Positions 15,422-47,862 of a DNA stretch of 64,000 nt are shown here, in pieces (position 1 is the first letter of the stretch; each line of letters begins with the position of its first letter). Origin of the DNA: Bacillus sp. ISL-55 (GTDB lineage: Bacteria > Bacillota > Bacilli > Bacillales > Cytobacillaceae); the NCBI RefSeq assembly GCF_018613155.1, contig NZ_JAGGQU010000036.1, positions 1-64,000 of the forward strand, read 5' to 3'. The position numbers were made by a program, and so were the translations under genes. The notes under the pieces were generated by a model. That model saw nothing but the letters and a program-made list of their open reading frames with translations. It was not told the DNA's origin and did not search any database.

Positions 15422-15836
15422 AAAGGTAACCTCCACATCAATTCATTACCTTTGAATTTTAGCACATATAAGATCAAAACGACAGATTTTATAAATTTTA
15501 GTAAGAAAACACCTACTAACAGCAATGTTCTACTTGAAAATAGTGATTAGGATCTTAATTTTTAACAGAAAATGAACCTTCAAAATGGTTTATTTCCGAT
15601 GTATCCATTTTTATAGCGAAAATTTATTTTTTATAGCGAAAAAATTTATTTTATAGCGACTTTTTCCTTTTTATAGCGAAAAAATATGTTTTATAGCGAC
15701 TTTTTTTCTTTTATAGCGAATTGGAAATTTTCAATGATTTTTTCCAGTACAGTTTGTGTGGAAATATAATTCTAAGTTTCAAAGTGCATTTTTATATGAT
15801 CTCTTTTTGCGGGACCAAATTTAATCTTAATAAAAC
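15422..15836. other. Intergenic region between the ylyA-like gene and lspA
   Basis: About 415 bases with no credible gene. It is strongly AT-rich and holds the six-copy 20-bp array at 15609-15720. The lspA promoter must lie here or upstream, but I could not single one out; each copy of the array carries a TATAAA-like hexamer on the minus strand. Confidence 0.6.
15609..15720. repeat. Six direct copies of TTTATAGCGA with exact 20-bp spacing
   Basis: TTATAGCGA occurs at 15611, 15631, 15651, 15671, 15691 and 15711, always 20 bases apart. The 10-base core is invariant; the filler between cores is A/T-rich and variable, alternating between AAAA-type and CTTTTT-type after the core. On the minus strand each core reads TCGCTATAAA, toward lspA. 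Confidence 0.9.
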
Positions 15837-38529: not shown

Positions 38530-38979
38530 CTATTCCTCACCTGCCTTATTACGATTGCTGCCAAAATCATTGATGTTTTCGGCCATCACAGCTATATCAT
38601 ATGTTTCATCAGCTTCATTAAGAAGTGCTTTGTTCAGGAAAATGAATTTAGTTCTTTCGTTGAGGTCTTCTTGTTGTGTTAAGTAATCATAGTATGAGTT
38701 CATAATTTTCTCTAAGCCTTTCAAATTATCTTGTGTATAAAAAATTGGGAAGTGGTTTGGCGCATATGCAGGCACCTGCTCGCCTTCAGGCCAGACAGCT
38801 GCCACAGCGCCATTGGAAATTGCTTCCTGTAAAGTCCCGGAATCATTCGATACCGGCACAAATAGGCCTTTAGGCTGTTTAGCATCAGCCAGACTGCTTA
38901 CAGTATGAAAGTGGATATTCTCATCCCTTATTCCAGCAGCTCTTGAAAATAGACTTGAAACATCCTGGTATGTCAGCAT
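38530..38979 (-). CDS. Orphan Mur ligase N-terminal-domain-like protein
   Basis: A 149-residue protein of unknown function between murE and mraY, with one-base gaps to both. Its first 100 residues resemble the UDP-binding N-terminal domain of MurE/Mur[26 protein letters not shown] aligns by eye with [29 protein letters not shown] of the neighbouring MurE, and the following [15 protein letters not shown] with [14 protein letters not shown]. The ATP-binding and C-terminal ligase domains are absent; the last 40 residues are unlike Mur proteins. It has a good GAGGAG ribosome site. B. subtilis has no gene here; many bacteria have murF here, so it may be a murF relic kept for another role. Function not assigned. 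Confidence 0.8.
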
Positions 38980-40653: not shown

Positions 40654-42567
40654 TTAATCGTTCATATAAACCCTAATGGTTGATCCTTCCTTAATTTTCA
40701 CCCCTGGTGAAGGAAGCTGTTTGACAACTTTCTCCCCATCGCCTGCTATATCAAGCTTGAAATTGATAAGTTGTTGCCTGAGCTCCTGTTTGGATAAGCC
40801 AACCAGGTCAGGCACCTCCACCATAGGTGTATCCAACCAGGTCAATTCTTTTTCAATCTGGTCCTTCCTAGGAGGAACCTCCATAGCCCGCAGGCTGTCC
40901 TCCATCATATCTCCAACAATAGGTGCTGCCACTACCCCGCCAAACTGGACTGTTCCCTTAGGATTGTCAACCGCTACATAGATGACAATTTGCGGATCAT
41001 CAGCAGGAGCAAAACCTATGAAGGAAACGATATGGTTATTTTCAAGATAGCGTCCATCCTTTGCCTTTTGGGCAGTACCTGTTTTGCCGCCAACCCTGTA
41101 AGAGTCAACATAAGCATTTTTCCCTGAACCTTTAGCTACGACACTTTCAAGCGCATGCCTGATTTCCTTCGAGGTTTCTTCAGAGATAACCCTTCTTTTT
41201 GCCTGTGGAGATTTCTTCATGACGACTTCGCCTGTAACAGGGTCAATAAGCTCTTTTGCAATGTAAGGTGTATACAATATTCCACCATTTACTGCTGCTG
41301 AAACCGCAGCGACCTGCTGAATCGGTGTGACGGAAACACCCTGTCCAAAAGCTGTTGTTGCCTGCTCGATTGGACCAACTCTGTCCAGGTTGAACAGGAT
41401 GCCTTTCCCTTCCCCTTGAAGGTCAATGCCTGTCTTCTCTCCGAAACCGAAATCCTTCACATATTTAAATAGTTTTTCTTTTCCGAGTCTGTCTCCTAGC
41501 TCAACGAAACCAGGGTTGCATGAATTCTCGACAACCTCAAGGAACGATTGGCTTCCGTGTCCGCCCTTTTTCCAGCAGCGTATTCTGGCCCCAGCCACTT
41601 CAACAGAACCGGAGTCATGAAAGTGATCTTTTTCAAGGTCGACCTTCCCTTCCTGAAGTGCTGCGGCAAGTGTGACAATTTTGAAAGTGGAACCTGGTTC
41701 ATACGTGCTCCAAATCGGCAGGTTCCGGTTGTAAACTTCCGGGGCAACATTGCGGAAATTGGCTGGATCAAAGTCAGGCCTGCTCGACATTGCGAGGATC
41801 TCCCCGTTGTTCGGATTCATGGCAATCGCAATGATGCCATCCGGATTGTATTTGGCCTGGGCAATATCCAGCTCCCTCTCGACGATAGTCTGTACCCTGC
41901 TGTCGATCGTCAGCTTTAAATCAAGCCCGTCCACAGGAGGTTGGTAATCATCAGCCATATTGTTCATCCGCTGCTGTTTTGCATCCGCATAAAATTGAAC
42001 CGAACCCTTTTCTCCTTTTAACTCCTTATCATAATAGAGCTCCAGCCCCATCAATCCCTGGTTGTCAATACCCGCGAAGCCAAGCACATGTGACAAATAG
42101 CTTCCATACGGATAATGGCGCTTTGAATCCTCGCCGATGTATATACCTTTGATATCGAGCGCCCTGATTTCCTTGGCTTTCTCGTGAGAAATCTTTCTGC
42201 CCTCTGGAATTCTCTCAATCATGGCTTTTTTCGTAATATGTTGATAGGCCTTCTCTTTAGACATGTTTAAAGCCTTCGCCAATATTTCTGCAGCAGCTTC
42301 GGGATCCTCTACCTGGCGCGGCACCACGTAAACAGTCGGTGCACTAATATTCGTTGCAAGCGCCACTCCATTCCTATCCGTTATTTCCCCTCGCTGCGGT
42401 TCAAATGGGACGTTCCTGCTCCATGAATCCTTCGCCTTTCCTGTCAAAAAGTCTCCAAGCATAAACTGCACATAACCAAGCCGGACATCTATGATGAAAA
42501 ACACCAAAATCCCAACCACCAGAACGAGAGCCAACCTCTTTCTGACCGTCACATTTGATACACGCAT
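40654..42567 (-). CDS. spoVD: Stage V sporulation protein D (class B PBP, cortex transpeptidase)
   Basis: The 637-residue transpeptidase that works with SpoVE in spore cortex synthesis. It has one N-terminal helix (residues 11-28), a dimerisation domain, and the penicillin-binding motifs STFK (293-296), SCN in VENSCNPGF, and KTGTAQ; a single PASTA domain (about 578-637) closes the protein, as in SpoVD. Start at ATG 42567 after GGGAGG. It is separated from pbpB by a 919-base gap with its own candidate sigma-E promoter. Confidence 0.94.
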   Translation of the reverse strand: MRVSNVTVRKRLALVLVVGILVFFIIDVRLGYVQFMLGDFLTGKAKDSWSRNVPFEPQRGEITDRNGVALATNISAPTVYVVPRQVEDPEAAAEILAKALNMSKEKAYQHITKKAMIERIPEGRKISHEKAKEIRALDIKGIYIGEDSKRHYPYGSYLSHVLGFAGIDNQGLMGLELYYDKELKGEKGSVQFYADAKQQRMNNMADDYQPPVDGLDLKLTIDSRVQTIVERELDIAQAKYNPDGIIAIAMNPNNGEILAMSSRPDFDPANFRNVAPEVYNRNLPIWSTYEPGSTFKIVTLAAALQEGKVDLEKDHFHDSGSVEVAGARIRCWKKGGHGSQSFLEVVENSCNPGFVELGDRLGKEKLFKYVKDFGFGEKTGIDLQGEGKGILFNLDRVGPIEQATTAFGQGVSVTPIQQVAAVSAAVNGGILYTPYIAKELIDPVTGEVVMKKSPQAKRRVISEETSKEIRHALESVVAKGSGKNAYVDSYRVGGKTGTAQKAKDGRYLENNHIVSFIGFAPADDPQIVIYVAVDNPKGTVQFGGVVAAPIVGDMMEDSLRAMEVPPRKDQIEKELTWLDTPMVEVPDLVGLSKQELRQQLINFKLDIAGDGEKVVKQLPSPGVKIKEGSTIRVYMND

Positions 42568-42769
42568 ATAGTGAACGAACCTCCCTCTATAGTTGTTCCA
42601 ATAGTAAACTAAGATACTCTCAGACACTCGTTCAAATATATGCTTGTACGAATTACAATATAACAAGAAGTGGAGACAAGCTGAGGTTTATAAAGAGCAG
42701 GGATAAGGAAGTGTTACTGACTACTAGTAAGGAGGATTTCATTGCAGCGTTGGTAGAACCAGGTGATAC
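42568..42769. other. spoVD upstream region
   Basis: About 200 bases between the spoVD start and the hairpin array. It holds the candidate sigma-E promoter at 42635-42663; otherwise I see nothing recognisable. Confidence 0.5.
42635..42663 (-). promoter_or_regulatory. Candidate sigma-E promoter of spoVD
   Basis: Minus-strand TTATATT (42657-42663) and CATATATT (42635-42642), separated by 14 bases, match the sigma-E consensus KMATATT-N14-CATACAMT at 6 of 7 and 6 of 8 positions. The predicted leader is about 60 bases. spoVD is known to be mother-cell expressed in B. subtilis. Confidence 0.6.
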
Positions 42770-43391
42770 TTCGGACAAATCATGAAGTTCTGGCTACTGA
42801 TTTTGGCCGAACTTGGTACTGCTTCAGACAAAATGAGCTGATTCAGCTGAGGTTTTGTCTGAACACAGGGCTACTTCGGACAAAACTAGATGATCCAGCT
42901 ACTGATTTTGGCCGAACTTGATGCCACTTCAGACAAAATGAGCTTACCCAGCTGATGTTTTGTCTGAACCTAGGGCTACTTCGGACAAAACTAGATGATC
43001 CAGCTACGATTTTGTCCGAACTTGATGCCGCTTCAGACAAAATGAGCTGATCCAGCTGAGGTTTTGTCTGAACCTAGGGCTACTTCGGACAAACCATGAA
43101 GATCAGGCTACGATTTTGGCCGAACTTGATACTGCTTCAGACAAAATGAGCTGATTGGACTGTGGCTTTGTCTGAACACAGGGCTACTTCGGACAAAACT
43201 AGATGATCTAGCTACGTTTTTGTCCGAACTTGGTACTACTTCAGACAAAATGAGCTGATCGGGCTGAGGTTTTGTCTGAACACAGGGCTACTTCGGACAA
43301 ATCATGAAGATCAGGCTACGTTTTTGTCCGAACTTGATACTACTTCAGACAAAATGAGCTGATCAGGCTTTGGTTTTGTCTGAACACAGGG
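42770..43391. repeat. Array of twelve alternating hairpins with 52-bp period
   Basis: Units start at 42770, 42823, 42875, 42928, 42980, 43032, 43084, 43136, 43188, 43240, 43292 and 43344; a degenerate thirteenth starts at 43395. Odd units begin TTCGGACAAA and end TTTTGTCCGAA or TTTTGGCCGAA; even units begin TTCAGACAAAA and end TTTGTCTGAA. Each unit is thus a hairpin of about 42 bases with an 11-bp stem, and the two types alternate, giving a 104-bp higher-order repeat. Loops carry a second conserved stretch around GATCAGCT/GATCCAGCT. No gene is encoded. Confidence 0.92.
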
Positions 43392-43473
43392 CTACTTCGA
43401 AAAAATAGAGACATAAGCTTAGAATTTTATCGGCTCCTAAGACAACTACCAATTACCGTCAGCAAACAAAAAA

Positions 43474-43508
43474 ACAGAGAAAGGGCTTATCCGCCCACTT
43501 CCTCTGTT
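43474..43508 (-). terminator. Terminator overlapping the 3' end of pbpB
   Basis: On the minus strand ACAGAG pairs with CTCTGT around an inner GGGC/GCCC stem, followed by a run of seven T. The left arm is the last codons of pbpB, so the terminator starts inside the coding sequence. Confidence 0.7.
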
Positions 43509-45697
43509 TCTTCATTTTCTTCTTCAGTTTTCAATGATTTCTCAAATTGCTGCAGCGGGGTTTCCAGCTCGACAATCAAATTTTCGCCTTCATTGATTGG
43601 TAATCCTGGCTTAAGACTTTGTTTCGTGACATAGCCGCTGCCGGCTTTGTTTAGCTTAATATCTGTAATTTGCGCCAGCTTCATTACGTCTCTGAGTGAC
43701 CAGTCTGTCATGTCTGGGTAGGTCATGACTCCAGATGCCCTGATAAAGACCTTTTCTCCTTCGAGCGCCATAATATTAGCCTTTGGCAACTGCTCAACAA
43801 CCTGGTTTCCGTCTCCTATTATCACTGTTTCAAACCCTTTGGATTCAAGCAGCTTCTTCGCTTCTGCTGCAATCAGCCCTGTTACATCTGGAACAGGACT
43901 GGAATCTGCTTTTTCCACAGTGGCAGGTTTGATATTCAAATACTGTAGACTGCTCTTCATCACAGATTTAAAAATCATAGACGTTGGTATAGAGCCTTTA
44001 AAATAATGGTCAATTTCCGGCTGCTGAACGGCGACATAGACGATCAGTTTAGGATCATCTTTTGGAGCCATTCCAAGGAATGAAAACAGATAATCGCTCG
44101 CTCCGTCTAAATAAGCCCCGTTTGCTGTTAAGTTCGCAGTACCAGTTTTACCAGCAACCTCGTATCCCTCGATGGCGTATGATTTACCAGTACCATGCTC
44201 ACCAGTAACAACCGTCCCTAAAACATCTCGGACCTGCTTTGCTGTTTCAGCTGATATAGGCTGACCAACGGACTTCGGCTCTTCCTGCGTGATCACTTCA
44301 CCAGTGTTCGGATTGACTATCTTATCAATCACACGCGGTTTCATCATCTTGCCATCATTTGCTACTGCTGTTGCAGCCTGTACCATCTGGATTGGTGTCA
44401 CTGTTGTTCCCTGACCGTATGATGTCGTGATTTTCTCAATCGGCCATCTATAAACAATAGTTCCTGCTGCTTCGTTTGGAAGGTCAATGCCTGTAGGCTG
44501 GTCAAAGCCAAAATCAGTTAAATACTCCCTGAATTTTTCTGTGCCGATTTTTTCATTTACTAGCTTTGCCACTGCTACGTTTGAGGAGCGCTGGATTCCT
44601 TCAAGATAGGTAATTGAGCCCCAGCCACTGCCGTTATGGTCGCGAATCGGCTTGGAGTTTTCGGTTACTTTATAGGATCCAGATTTATACCACTCATTCG
44701 GATTCCATTTGTTCTCCTCAATTGCAGCTGCAAGCGTGAAAATTTTCATCGTCGAACCTGGCTCGATCGGTGTTTCAACAACTTCATTATGCCAGCTTTC
44801 ATTTAAACCCTCCCTTGTCGTCGGGTGGAAGCTAGGCCGCTGTGCCATCGCAAGGATATCCCCTGTCTTCGGATCAGCGACAACTGCAATGATTTTCTTT
44901 GGCTTGTATTCCTTGTCTACACGATCAATTGCATCCTCCACGAACGTCTGGATTTTTTTATCAATCGTTAAAAAAACATTGCTGCCATCTTGGGCAGGAG
45001 TAACTTTTTTCTCACCATCAGGTAAAAGGAAGCCCCATAAATCACTTTCAAACGAAAGTGAACCATTTTTACCAGTCAATTCGTCATTAAGCGTTTTTTC
45101 AATCCCCAGCTGTCCAGAAGTAACCGTTTTATTGTCCTCTGTTTCTTCCTTTTCTACAAATCCGACTAAGTGGGATGAGAATACACCATTCGGATAGAAT
45201 CTCTTAGAATCTCGTAAAAAAGTAATCCCTGGCAGCTTTTCCTCTTCGATTTCACGTTTGGTCTGATGAGATATGTCGCGGCCGGCTTTTCCAAATTCAA
45301 CCTGCCATGCTTTTTCTTTGGTCAGACGTTTGTATATCTCCGATTCGCTCATATCTATATATTTTGCCAGTACTGCCGCGGTCTTCGCAGGGTCACTGAC
45401 ATGCTTTGGTTTCTTTTTATTCGTTGTCACAGATTCATTAAGGATAGCGACAAGCGTGTAGGCAGTTGTATCTTCAGCAACAACTTCGCCTTTTCGGTCA
45501 AAAATCGTTCCTCTTGTCGCCTCGATTACTTTTTCATTTGAATACTTCTGCTGTGCCCTTGCAGCCAGGGCTTGTCCATGTACCTCTCCAGTTACCTGGA
45601 TGGAAATGAACCTGAAAATCAAGATAAAAAAGAGCAGGCTGAATATTACGAATAATACCGCTGCTCCTGCATTCATATTTGGCTGTTTCTTGATCAT
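43487..45697 (-). CDS. pbpB: Penicillin-binding protein 2B (septal transpeptidase)
   Basis: The essential class B transpeptidase of the divisome, 736 residues. It has an N-terminal helix (residues 11-32), a dimerisation domain, and motifs STMK (in EPGSTMKIFTLAA, about residue 305), SSN (IQRSSNVAVA) and KTGTAN, followed by two PASTA domains. The ATG shares one base with the ftsL stop (TGATG). An acidic tail ends the protein. Confidence 0.96.
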   Translation of the reverse strand: MIKKQPNMNAGAAVLFVIFSLLFFILIFRFISIQVTGEVHGQALAARAQQKYSNEKVIEATRGTIFDRKGEVVAEDTTAYTLVAILNESVTTNKKKPKHVSDPAKTAAVLAKYIDMSESEIYKRLTKEKAWQVEFGKAGRDISHQTKREIEEEKLPGITFLRDSKRFYPNGVFSSHLVGFVEKEETEDNKTVTSGQLGIEKTLNDELTGKNGSLSFESDLWGFLLPDGEKKVTPAQDGSNVFLTIDKKIQTFVEDAIDRVDKEYKPKKIIAVVADPKTGDILAMAQRPSFHPTTREGLNESWHNEVVETPIEPGSTMKIFTLAAAIEENKWNPNEWYKSGSYKVTENSKPIRDHNGSGWGSITYLEGIQRSSNVAVAKLVNEKIGTEKFREYLTDFGFDQPTGIDLPNEAAGTIVYRWPIEKITTSYGQGTTVTPIQMVQAATAVANDGKMMKPRVIDKIVNPNTGEVITQEEPKSVGQPISAETAKQVRDVLGTVVTGEHGTGKSYAIEGYEVAGKTGTANLTANGAYLDGASDYLFSFLGMAPKDDPKLIVYVAVQQPEIDHYFKGSIPTSMIFKSVMKSSLQYLNIKPATVEKADSSPVPDVTGLIAAEAKKLLESKGFETVIIGDGNQVVEQLPKANIMALEGEKVFIRASGVMTYPDMTDWSLRDVMKLAQITDIKLNKAGSGYVTKQSLKPGLPINEGENLIVELETPLQQFEKSLKTEEENEETEEVGG

Positions 45698-47642: not shown

Positions 47643-47862
47643 AAAAAGATGCTTTTACCTAAATGCGCCGTTTCCTTTCCTTTCGGGAAAAGAAGAGCCG
47701 CTGCTTTTAGGTTAATTCATCTCCCTCTCTCTTTACAGGAAATGCAGAACCGTTGCTTTTACCGTAATTCATCTTTCCTTCTCTTTTCAGGCAATGCAGA
47801 ACCATTGCTTTTATCGAAATTCATCTTCCTCCCTCTTTTCGGGCAATGCAGAGGTGTGACAA
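47643..47862. repeat. 52-bp tandem repeat between bshC and mraZ
   Basis: Units start at 47695, 47747 and 47799, exactly 52 bases apart, with a degenerate copy before and a truncated copy after. Each contains TTGCTTTTA, AATTCATCT, a pyrimidine-rich CCTTCTCTTTTC-type tract and GGCAATGCAGAACC; the junctions form a short GCAATG..CATTGC stem. The rest of the gap between mraZ and bshC holds the MraZ boxes and the bshC terminator. Confidence 0.85.

Follow-up and report, generated by a model that had tools for sequence, protein, structure and literature searches.

A tandem array of 52-bp units between pbpB and spoVD of Bacillus sp. ISL-55 contains phased inverted half-sites that recur across genera of the order and may be read as DNA

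The window analyzed here, a 64,000-nucleotide stretch of Bacillus sp. ISL-55 (contig NZ_JAGGQU010000036.1), carries a tandem array of inverted repeats between pbpB and spoVD, which raises the question of whether such an array serves the two genes beside it, acts as transcribed hairpins, is a satellite without benefit to its host, or is read as DNA by a protein. A preliminary description, made from the letters of the window, had placed the array between these genes with a sigma-E-like promoter on the spoVD side, and this placement was upheld, with the array sitting in the gap between a terminator-like hairpin and that promoter (Table 1). The product of the upstream gene had every NCBIfam hit below its cut-off, and the name pbpB is our assignment from its presumed position in the dcw cluster. 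Likewise, the spoVD promoter was called against what we take to be the sigma-E consensus. The hairpin at the end of pbpB was absent from the output of a dedicated terminator scan.

Table 1. Features of the pbpB-spoVD gap and its flanking genes, in window coordinates
Feature	Position	Strand	Description
pbpB, upstream gene	43487..45697	-	division PBP2B-type transpeptidase; PBP_dimer, Transpeptidase and two PASTA matches
Intrinsic-terminator-like hairpin and U run, pbpB end	43467..43510	-	predicted, -20.9 kcal/mol, z -4.87
52-bp tandem array, 12 units	42770..43384	.	A arm TTCRGACAAAA - N19/N20 - B arm TTTTGKCYGAA; N11 between units
Eight exact TGTC-N19-GACA dyads in 52-bp phase, unit core	42856..43351	.	
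Sigma-E-like spoVD promoter	42635..42664	-	GTTATATT - N14 - CATATATT
spoVD, downstream gene	40654..42567	-	TIGR02214 above cut-off; listed ORF reaches 42666

All twelve units announced in the preliminary description were present, at a period of 52 bp with two intervals of 53. The A arms (TTCRGACAAAA) start at 42770, 42823, 42875, 42928, 42980 and onward to 43344, and the B arms (TTTTGTCYGAA) from 42801 to 43374, with 17 of the 24 arms matching these patterns exactly and seven carrying one mismatch. A-to-B starts were 30 bases apart (31 in units 1 and 3) and B-to-A starts were 22 apart in all 11 cases. The start first given for the array stood, while its end at 43391 did not, as the last B arm stops at 43384 and TRF carries a partial unit on to 43399-43406. 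Two unit types alternate as had been described, odd units being G-type and even units A/T-type, and the GGCCGAA ending ascribed to some odd units was found in three of the six (units 1, 3, and 7). TRF gave a score of 870 to the 104-bp period compared to 455 for that of 52 bp, and because the longer period outscores the shorter, the odd/even alternation is read as one amplified dimer. The doubled in-phase dyad pattern occurred five times in the window compared to none in 100 dinucleotide shuffles, and a chance origin of the array is excluded.

The stems had been taken to be compensatory, a change in one arm being matched in its partner, but this did not emerge as a general rule, the two stem bases varying independently over 283 units of 32 arrays. 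Across the N19 stem, the one originally described, the pairs were G-C 123, G-T 71, A-C 58, A-T 29, and other 2 (n = 283, odds ratio ~ 0.87), and across the N11 stem C-G 120, T-G 76, C-A 66, T-A 21, and other 2 (n = 285, odds ratio ~ 0.50), these counts leaving out the entries from unrelated taxa (L019, L027, L030, L032) and clusters with fewer than five arms. Expected values came from shuffling partners within arrays. For the N19 stem, 9 arrays (100 units), the window array among them, had 62 Watson-Crick pairs where shuffling predicts 56.0 (p = 0.10), and the 8 arrays (90 units) left after its removal had 52 compared to 50.7 (p = 0.45), and the N11 stem had no excess either with the window array (58 vs. 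62.3) or without it (58 vs. 56.9). When the set was widened to 72 arrays (588 units), each having three or more exact dyads, there were 85 pairs vs. 84.8 expected at the N11-side pair 5/23 (146 units from 14 arrays that vary on both sides) and 67 vs. 65.7 at pair 10/18 (16 arrays), while pairs 6 to 9 varied on both sides in only one to four arrays. These comparisons yielded no clear excess of unit-level pairing, and compensation at the G/A stem position was rejected, there being no clear association in either the unit counts or the within-array shuffles. The perfect arm match in the window reflects one amplified dimer and hence a single event. Arm symmetry is real, as it holds when arrays with different arm classes are compared, but pairing within the unit is not visibly selected.

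These counts bear on the proposal that the arrays are transcribed and act through their stems as RNA or single-strand hairpins, whether as an RNA sponge, a stability element, or an attenuator, which we consider improbable. The whole array (-217.3 kcal/mol) folds better than 20 shuffled versions of it (z = -7.4), single-unit folds (n = 4) gave z of -4.5 and -4.7 for two 41-mers and -1.8 and -2.7 for two 33-mers, and complementarity between arms persists across arm classes, all of which hairpins would lead one to expect. In B. coagulans, according to the text of PMC8625621, 52-nt satellites give rise to transcripts. However, the weak pair excess at the N19 stem, which would likewise fit hairpins, vanished once the window array was left out and had no counterpart at the N11 stem, the window array sits downstream of a terminator-like hairpin and upstream of a promoter, and a search of positions 42600-43600 against Rfam returned no family at threshold, the sole hit up to E 1 scoring 21.5 bits against a cut-off of 61.7 and lying outside the array at 43469-43577.

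A further point against hairpins is that the unconserved loops are spaced with single-base exactness, a precision that a loop should not require. Over 464 kb of the window's own genome, TGTC-Nd-GACA occurred 90 times at d = 19 compared to 1 to 15 times at each other d between 4 and 59, and the dyads stood 52, 104, 156, and 208 apart. The reversed tetramers ACAG-Nd-CTGT also peaked, with 58 at d = 23, of which 46 were GACAG...CTGTC, the spacing of the same 52-bp arrays seen from the spacer side. Among 27 published 52-nt consensi, five contained TGTC-N19-GACA and one the N17 form, with no other spacing from 8 to 31, and 5000 shuffles of these consensi gave a mean of 0.007 and a maximum of 2 for N19; the spacing claim draws on the 464 kb of one genome, these 27 consensi, and a reversed-pattern control. 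Neighboring arm pairs of the own genome and of genus loci were similarly regular, A-to-B distances being 30 in 299 of 310 and B-to-A distances 22 in 291 of 295, counted apart from A-A and B-B neighbors, which mostly stand 52 apart with one arm missed. Over 32 arrays with at least five arms each, from the own genome and fetched genus loci, the arms were nearly invariant, though they had served as the query, and N19 was variable, with an identity of 0.73 within arrays and 0.35 between them. The corresponding values for N11, which is directional (CCTGGTGTGAC or its complement), were 0.81 and 0.57.

Divergence within units was followed in 24 arrays of the own genome (132 interior units, 122 exact dyads), where the arms departed from the array consensus by 1.3%, positions 5/23 by 10%, the center by 14%, the spacer by 15%, and the three bases flanking the dyad on each side by 0.07. 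Anchoring on exact dyads lowers positions 1-4 and 24-27 by choice, and positions 6-9 and 19-22, which were unforced, still diverged by 0 to 0.03. Since the positions are linked, homogenization alone should not yield this contrast between arm and spacer, and the earlier suggestion that the array is not a random satellite and that its inverted arms are constrained is supported. The conservation-weighted centers of the half-sites were 20.73 and 31.27 bp apart, which corresponds to 1.99 and 3.01 turns at 10.4 bp per turn or 1.97 and 2.98 at 10.5, so that the period near five helical turns noted at the outset resolves into two plus three, a possible reason for the number 52 in the TGTC-dyad class. 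For one class, this phase is a single number and could be luck. By arithmetic on consensi, the 53-nt class with ACCCTTAT...ATAAGGGT arms has non-integral turns, and helical phasing may not extend to every 52-nt satellite.

The array is not confined to pbpB-spoVD, as a search of the genome and its relatives, suggested in the preliminary description, found the motif on several contigs and in other species. Six loci in the own genome carried the strict A-N-B pattern, and the B-N11-A pattern added a seventh contig (C5); strict arms were present in 16 of 21 genus genomes, own included, and the strict B-N11-A pattern in 17 of 193 family genomes, 16 of which, again with the own genome, belong to this genus. 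Named records with the strict motif were Mesobacillus selenatarsenatis (the current name of B. selenatarsenatis), M. boroniphilus, Bacillus sp. ISL-37, ISL-41, and ISL-45, together with records labeled 'Cytobacillus oceanisediminis 2691' and 'Chryseobacterium sp. ISL-80'; the latter (L021, L054) bear arrays of Mesobacillus type and the label is probably wrong. Four records outside this lineage (Spirosomataceae, Bacteroidales, Acaryochloris, Prevotellaceae) had a lone match each, which appears to be a chance hit or an isolated palindrome. Over the order, a doubled TGTC-N19-GACA in 52-bp phase was found in 69 of 397 genomes (seven of them with one match only) and 30 of 135 genera, or 17 of 47 families by manual tally of the order-wide table, compared to one match in one genome for the reversed-pattern control. 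The count was highest, at 615, in the window's own genome, and all ten genomes of this genus among the 397, own included, matched; G018 and G019 contained the doubled dyad and no strict arms. No strict-pair match was found in a collection of viral contigs, which may omit records near the window, and a phage origin was rejected on this result. Genus arrays often lie at draft contig ends (e.g., L023, L031, L033, L037, L039, L053), where assemblies seem to break, so that counts there would be lower bounds.

The window array is a member of the published class of 52-nt Bacillus satellites. The main text of Subirana and Messeguer (2021, PMC8161180), which follows an earlier survey (PMC6749651), describes non-coding tandem repeats with a period of 51-53, several families of equal length and different sequence per genome, partial positional conservation, and short signals that recur in reverse within one unit; for B. 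selenatarsenatis, it gives 82 tandem repeats, 59.8% of them of 52 nt and in 'many' families, with repeats common to B. boroniphilus and B. subterraneus. The arrays described here share with this class the unit length of 51-53 with at least four regular copies, the presence of several same-length families of different sequence in one genome, the signal and its reverse in one unit, and, over the 18 arrays examined, the non-coding position. The same text denies sequence conservation between species, proposes nucleoid proteins or small RNAs, and in its Table 2 gives no signal for this genus, whereas we find a shared TGTC-N19-GACA across genera, a measured spacing and half-site constraint, and an occupied orthologous slot. 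New here is the dyad TGTC-N19-GACA every 52 bp as the core of the unit across genera of the order, for which no prior report was found in the texts consulted of PMC8161180, PMC8625621, and PMC6749651 or in literature searches. Searches with any of the four arm 11-mers gave no paper on such repeats among the matches listed, judged by title and start of abstract, and a search on spoVD, pbpB, and sigma E gave no paper with all its terms combined.

In ~ 911 kb of the own genome, 25 arrays with at least two phased dyads fell into several arm classes (YGAA, NNTAGA, NTCAT, AMGAWW, YNATAAA), and left and right arms tended to share class, with symmetry exceeding re-pairing at positions 5-8 and 10 in the own genome and at 5-10 over 49 arrays, 25 of which come from one genome, many of common ancestry and one of which was counted twice (G402, G402x). 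Array-level symmetry was absent at positions 11-13, and in the own genome (G000) position 9 was not significant (p = 0.07) and position 13 complemented less than re-pairing. Other families of 51-53 nt in the own genome have no TGTC and dyads of their own (ACCCTTAT/ATAAGGGT; GGGCTNATAGA; GGKCACCAATA), and in samples of G000, G402, G495, and G256 an inverted repeat with z > 2 was found in 42 of 48 TRF rows with a period of 51-53, a few of which overlap, including 16 of the 21 rows whose consensus contains no exact TGTC dyad. The ACCCTTAT...ATAAGGGT family was seen in G000 at L109:4480-4714, L121:1083-1371, L156:4661-5026, L142:18162-18262, and L159-L161, and a 51-nt family on contig C11 at L102:7359-7720 and L110:6275-6752. 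In L110, the dyad of this family, GGGCTCATAGA...TTCTATAAGCCC, spans 27 bp, as the TGTC dyad does, and has another outer part.

Within the genus, the pbpB-spoVD slot, taken from terminator to promoter, held at least two in-phase near-dyads in 14 of the 21 genomes, the own genome among them, a near-dyad being allowed up to three substitutions in its 14 arm bases. These slots contained 2 to 20 near-dyads, that of G008 being cut by a contig edge, and the outer arms were altered in G006, G007, and G013 (GACAGCTTTTC type) with the period unchanged. The slots of G001 and G004 had a single near-dyad each, and none was found in G010, G012, G018, G019, or G017, the last also cut by a contig edge. The terminator motif CTTCCTCTGTTTTTT (up to three substitutions) was present in 19 genomes, while in the remaining two a contig edge interrupts the region. 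All 21, own included, had the promoter stretch (up to nine substitutions in 39), with GTTATAAT replacing GTTATATT in G010 and G013. A local device, acting as an insulator between pbpB and spoVD or as a regulator of spoVD, would fit this position between terminator and sigma-E-like promoter. However, all five genomes showing no array here retain the promoter, and the four that are uncut retain the terminator motif, the length of the slot varies from 32 to 1164 bases, and arrays of the same kind stand at many other loci; we regard a local role as very improbable. In G012 and G019 (loci L076 and L073), the slot is filled by other sequence that appears repeat-like by eye, as if it tolerates insertions.

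Slot occupancy with internal turnover fits maintenance of copy number and half-sites, but it also fits a selfish or neutral satellite, in which replication or recombination requiring the dyad (hairpin slippage or a dyad-acting enzyme) would seed and amplify arrays with no benefit to the host. We hold this to be a serious if rather unlikely contender. It accounts for copy numbers and spacers that turn over at one orthologous position, for the replacement of the array by other sequence in two genomes, for array edges that look decayed, for the higher-order 104-bp dimer in the window, and for arrays located in gaps. On this last point, the preliminary description had proposed that a neutral satellite would occur at random sites, including inside genes. 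Of 18 own-genome arrays (six of them, the window's included, picked for holding the strict motif), 11 overlapped no ORF of at least 90 aa, and the eight ORFs overlapping the other seven had no Pfam match at E 0.001, which does not disprove their status as genes. Flanking genes, taken from a simple ORF caller, were co-directional at ten of the arrays, convergent at five, and divergent at two, with one array at a contig end. Within a single unit, however, spacers diverge about ten times as much as half-sites, indicating that a sequence-specific step is needed, and no dedicated amplifying enzyme was found, Y1_Tnp, the sole candidate tested, being missing from three of 21 genomes.

The arrays resemble REP/REPIN and BIME-2 elements, which are intergenic arrays of alternating inverted palindromic motifs with a copy number that varies at orthologous sites. 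Arrays of the window type likewise alternate inverted motifs and vary in copy number by site, but their unit is fixed at 52 bp, and whereas REP/REPIN palindromes have a GTAG or CGTC tag at the foot, the oriented N11 has GT at one end, followed by variable third and fourth bases. Counted at the level of Y1_Tnp, with RAYT type not distinguished, the domain was present in 18 genus genomes, own included, and absent from G016, G019, and G020; G016 and G020 contain 31 and 35 strict motif pairs, and dependence on a RAYT, a Y1 transposase, was rejected. A likeness to CRISPR, also remarked on for 52-nt satellites in the text of PMC8161180, lies in the strict period and in a partly palindromic constant part (27-33 bp) next to a variable part (19-25 bp); in contrast to unique CRISPR spacers, the N19 segments are near-copies within an array and there are many arrays per genome.

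The reading we favor, tentatively and at slightly less than even confidence, is that the array works as DNA, as a set of phased protein-binding half-sites with a putative reader. The fixed spacing of unconserved sequence, the half-site constraint without pairing, and the integral helical spacing together favor a protein that reads DNA, and the recurrence of the paired motif in similar arrays of many related genera suggests that a protein reads them. Each 52-bp unit contains two inverted half-sites, one reaching from roughly -3 to +9 around TGTCYGAA and the other its mirror image, and with centers two and three helical turns apart, all half-sites would face one side of the helix. A putative sequence-specific protein could then occupy them in register, possibly with cooperative binding, and form an extended nucleoprotein patch in the non-coding stretch. 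Candidate roles for such a patch would be shielding of neighboring transcription or anchoring of the nucleoid, the latter having been proposed in the text of Subirana and Messeguer (PMC8161180). Several points count against this reading: a single protein would have to tolerate the several arm classes of one genome, the symmetry of arms between classes would also be required of a hairpin, five of 21 genus genomes show no array in the slot, and the two limits on helical phasing given above apply. A broader proposal, that the TGTC-N19-GACA arrays of many Bacillales genera form one ancient system of chromosomal satellites, with helically phased half-sites recognized by a conserved family of proteins that may evolve fast, seems to us distinctly doubtful.

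If the arrays are indeed read in this way, the nucleoprotein patches built at numerous intergenic positions along each chromosome would be a bacterial counterpart of satellite chromatin. Published accounts give the 52-nt satellites a constant length but neither sequence conservation nor an evident function. The shared dyad and its measured half-sites make function testable, as bait for a reader and through a prediction on spacing, and they give a genome scan usable across genera.

Three other features of the window were observed. A second 52-nt array of 3.3 copies at 47681-47852, which we take to lie between mraZ and the next gene, has no TGTC dyad and no significant inverted repeat (z = 0.2). 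On the minus strand at 38530-38979, a 149-aa ORF stands between two genes that are presumably mraY and murE, and it overlaps the listed start of mraY. A 20/40-nt tandem array with TTTTATAGCGA at 15608-15720 belongs to the other constant-length class described in the text of PMC8161180, and a similar unit occurs on contigs C5 (50252-50371) and C3 (66200-66312) of the own genome.
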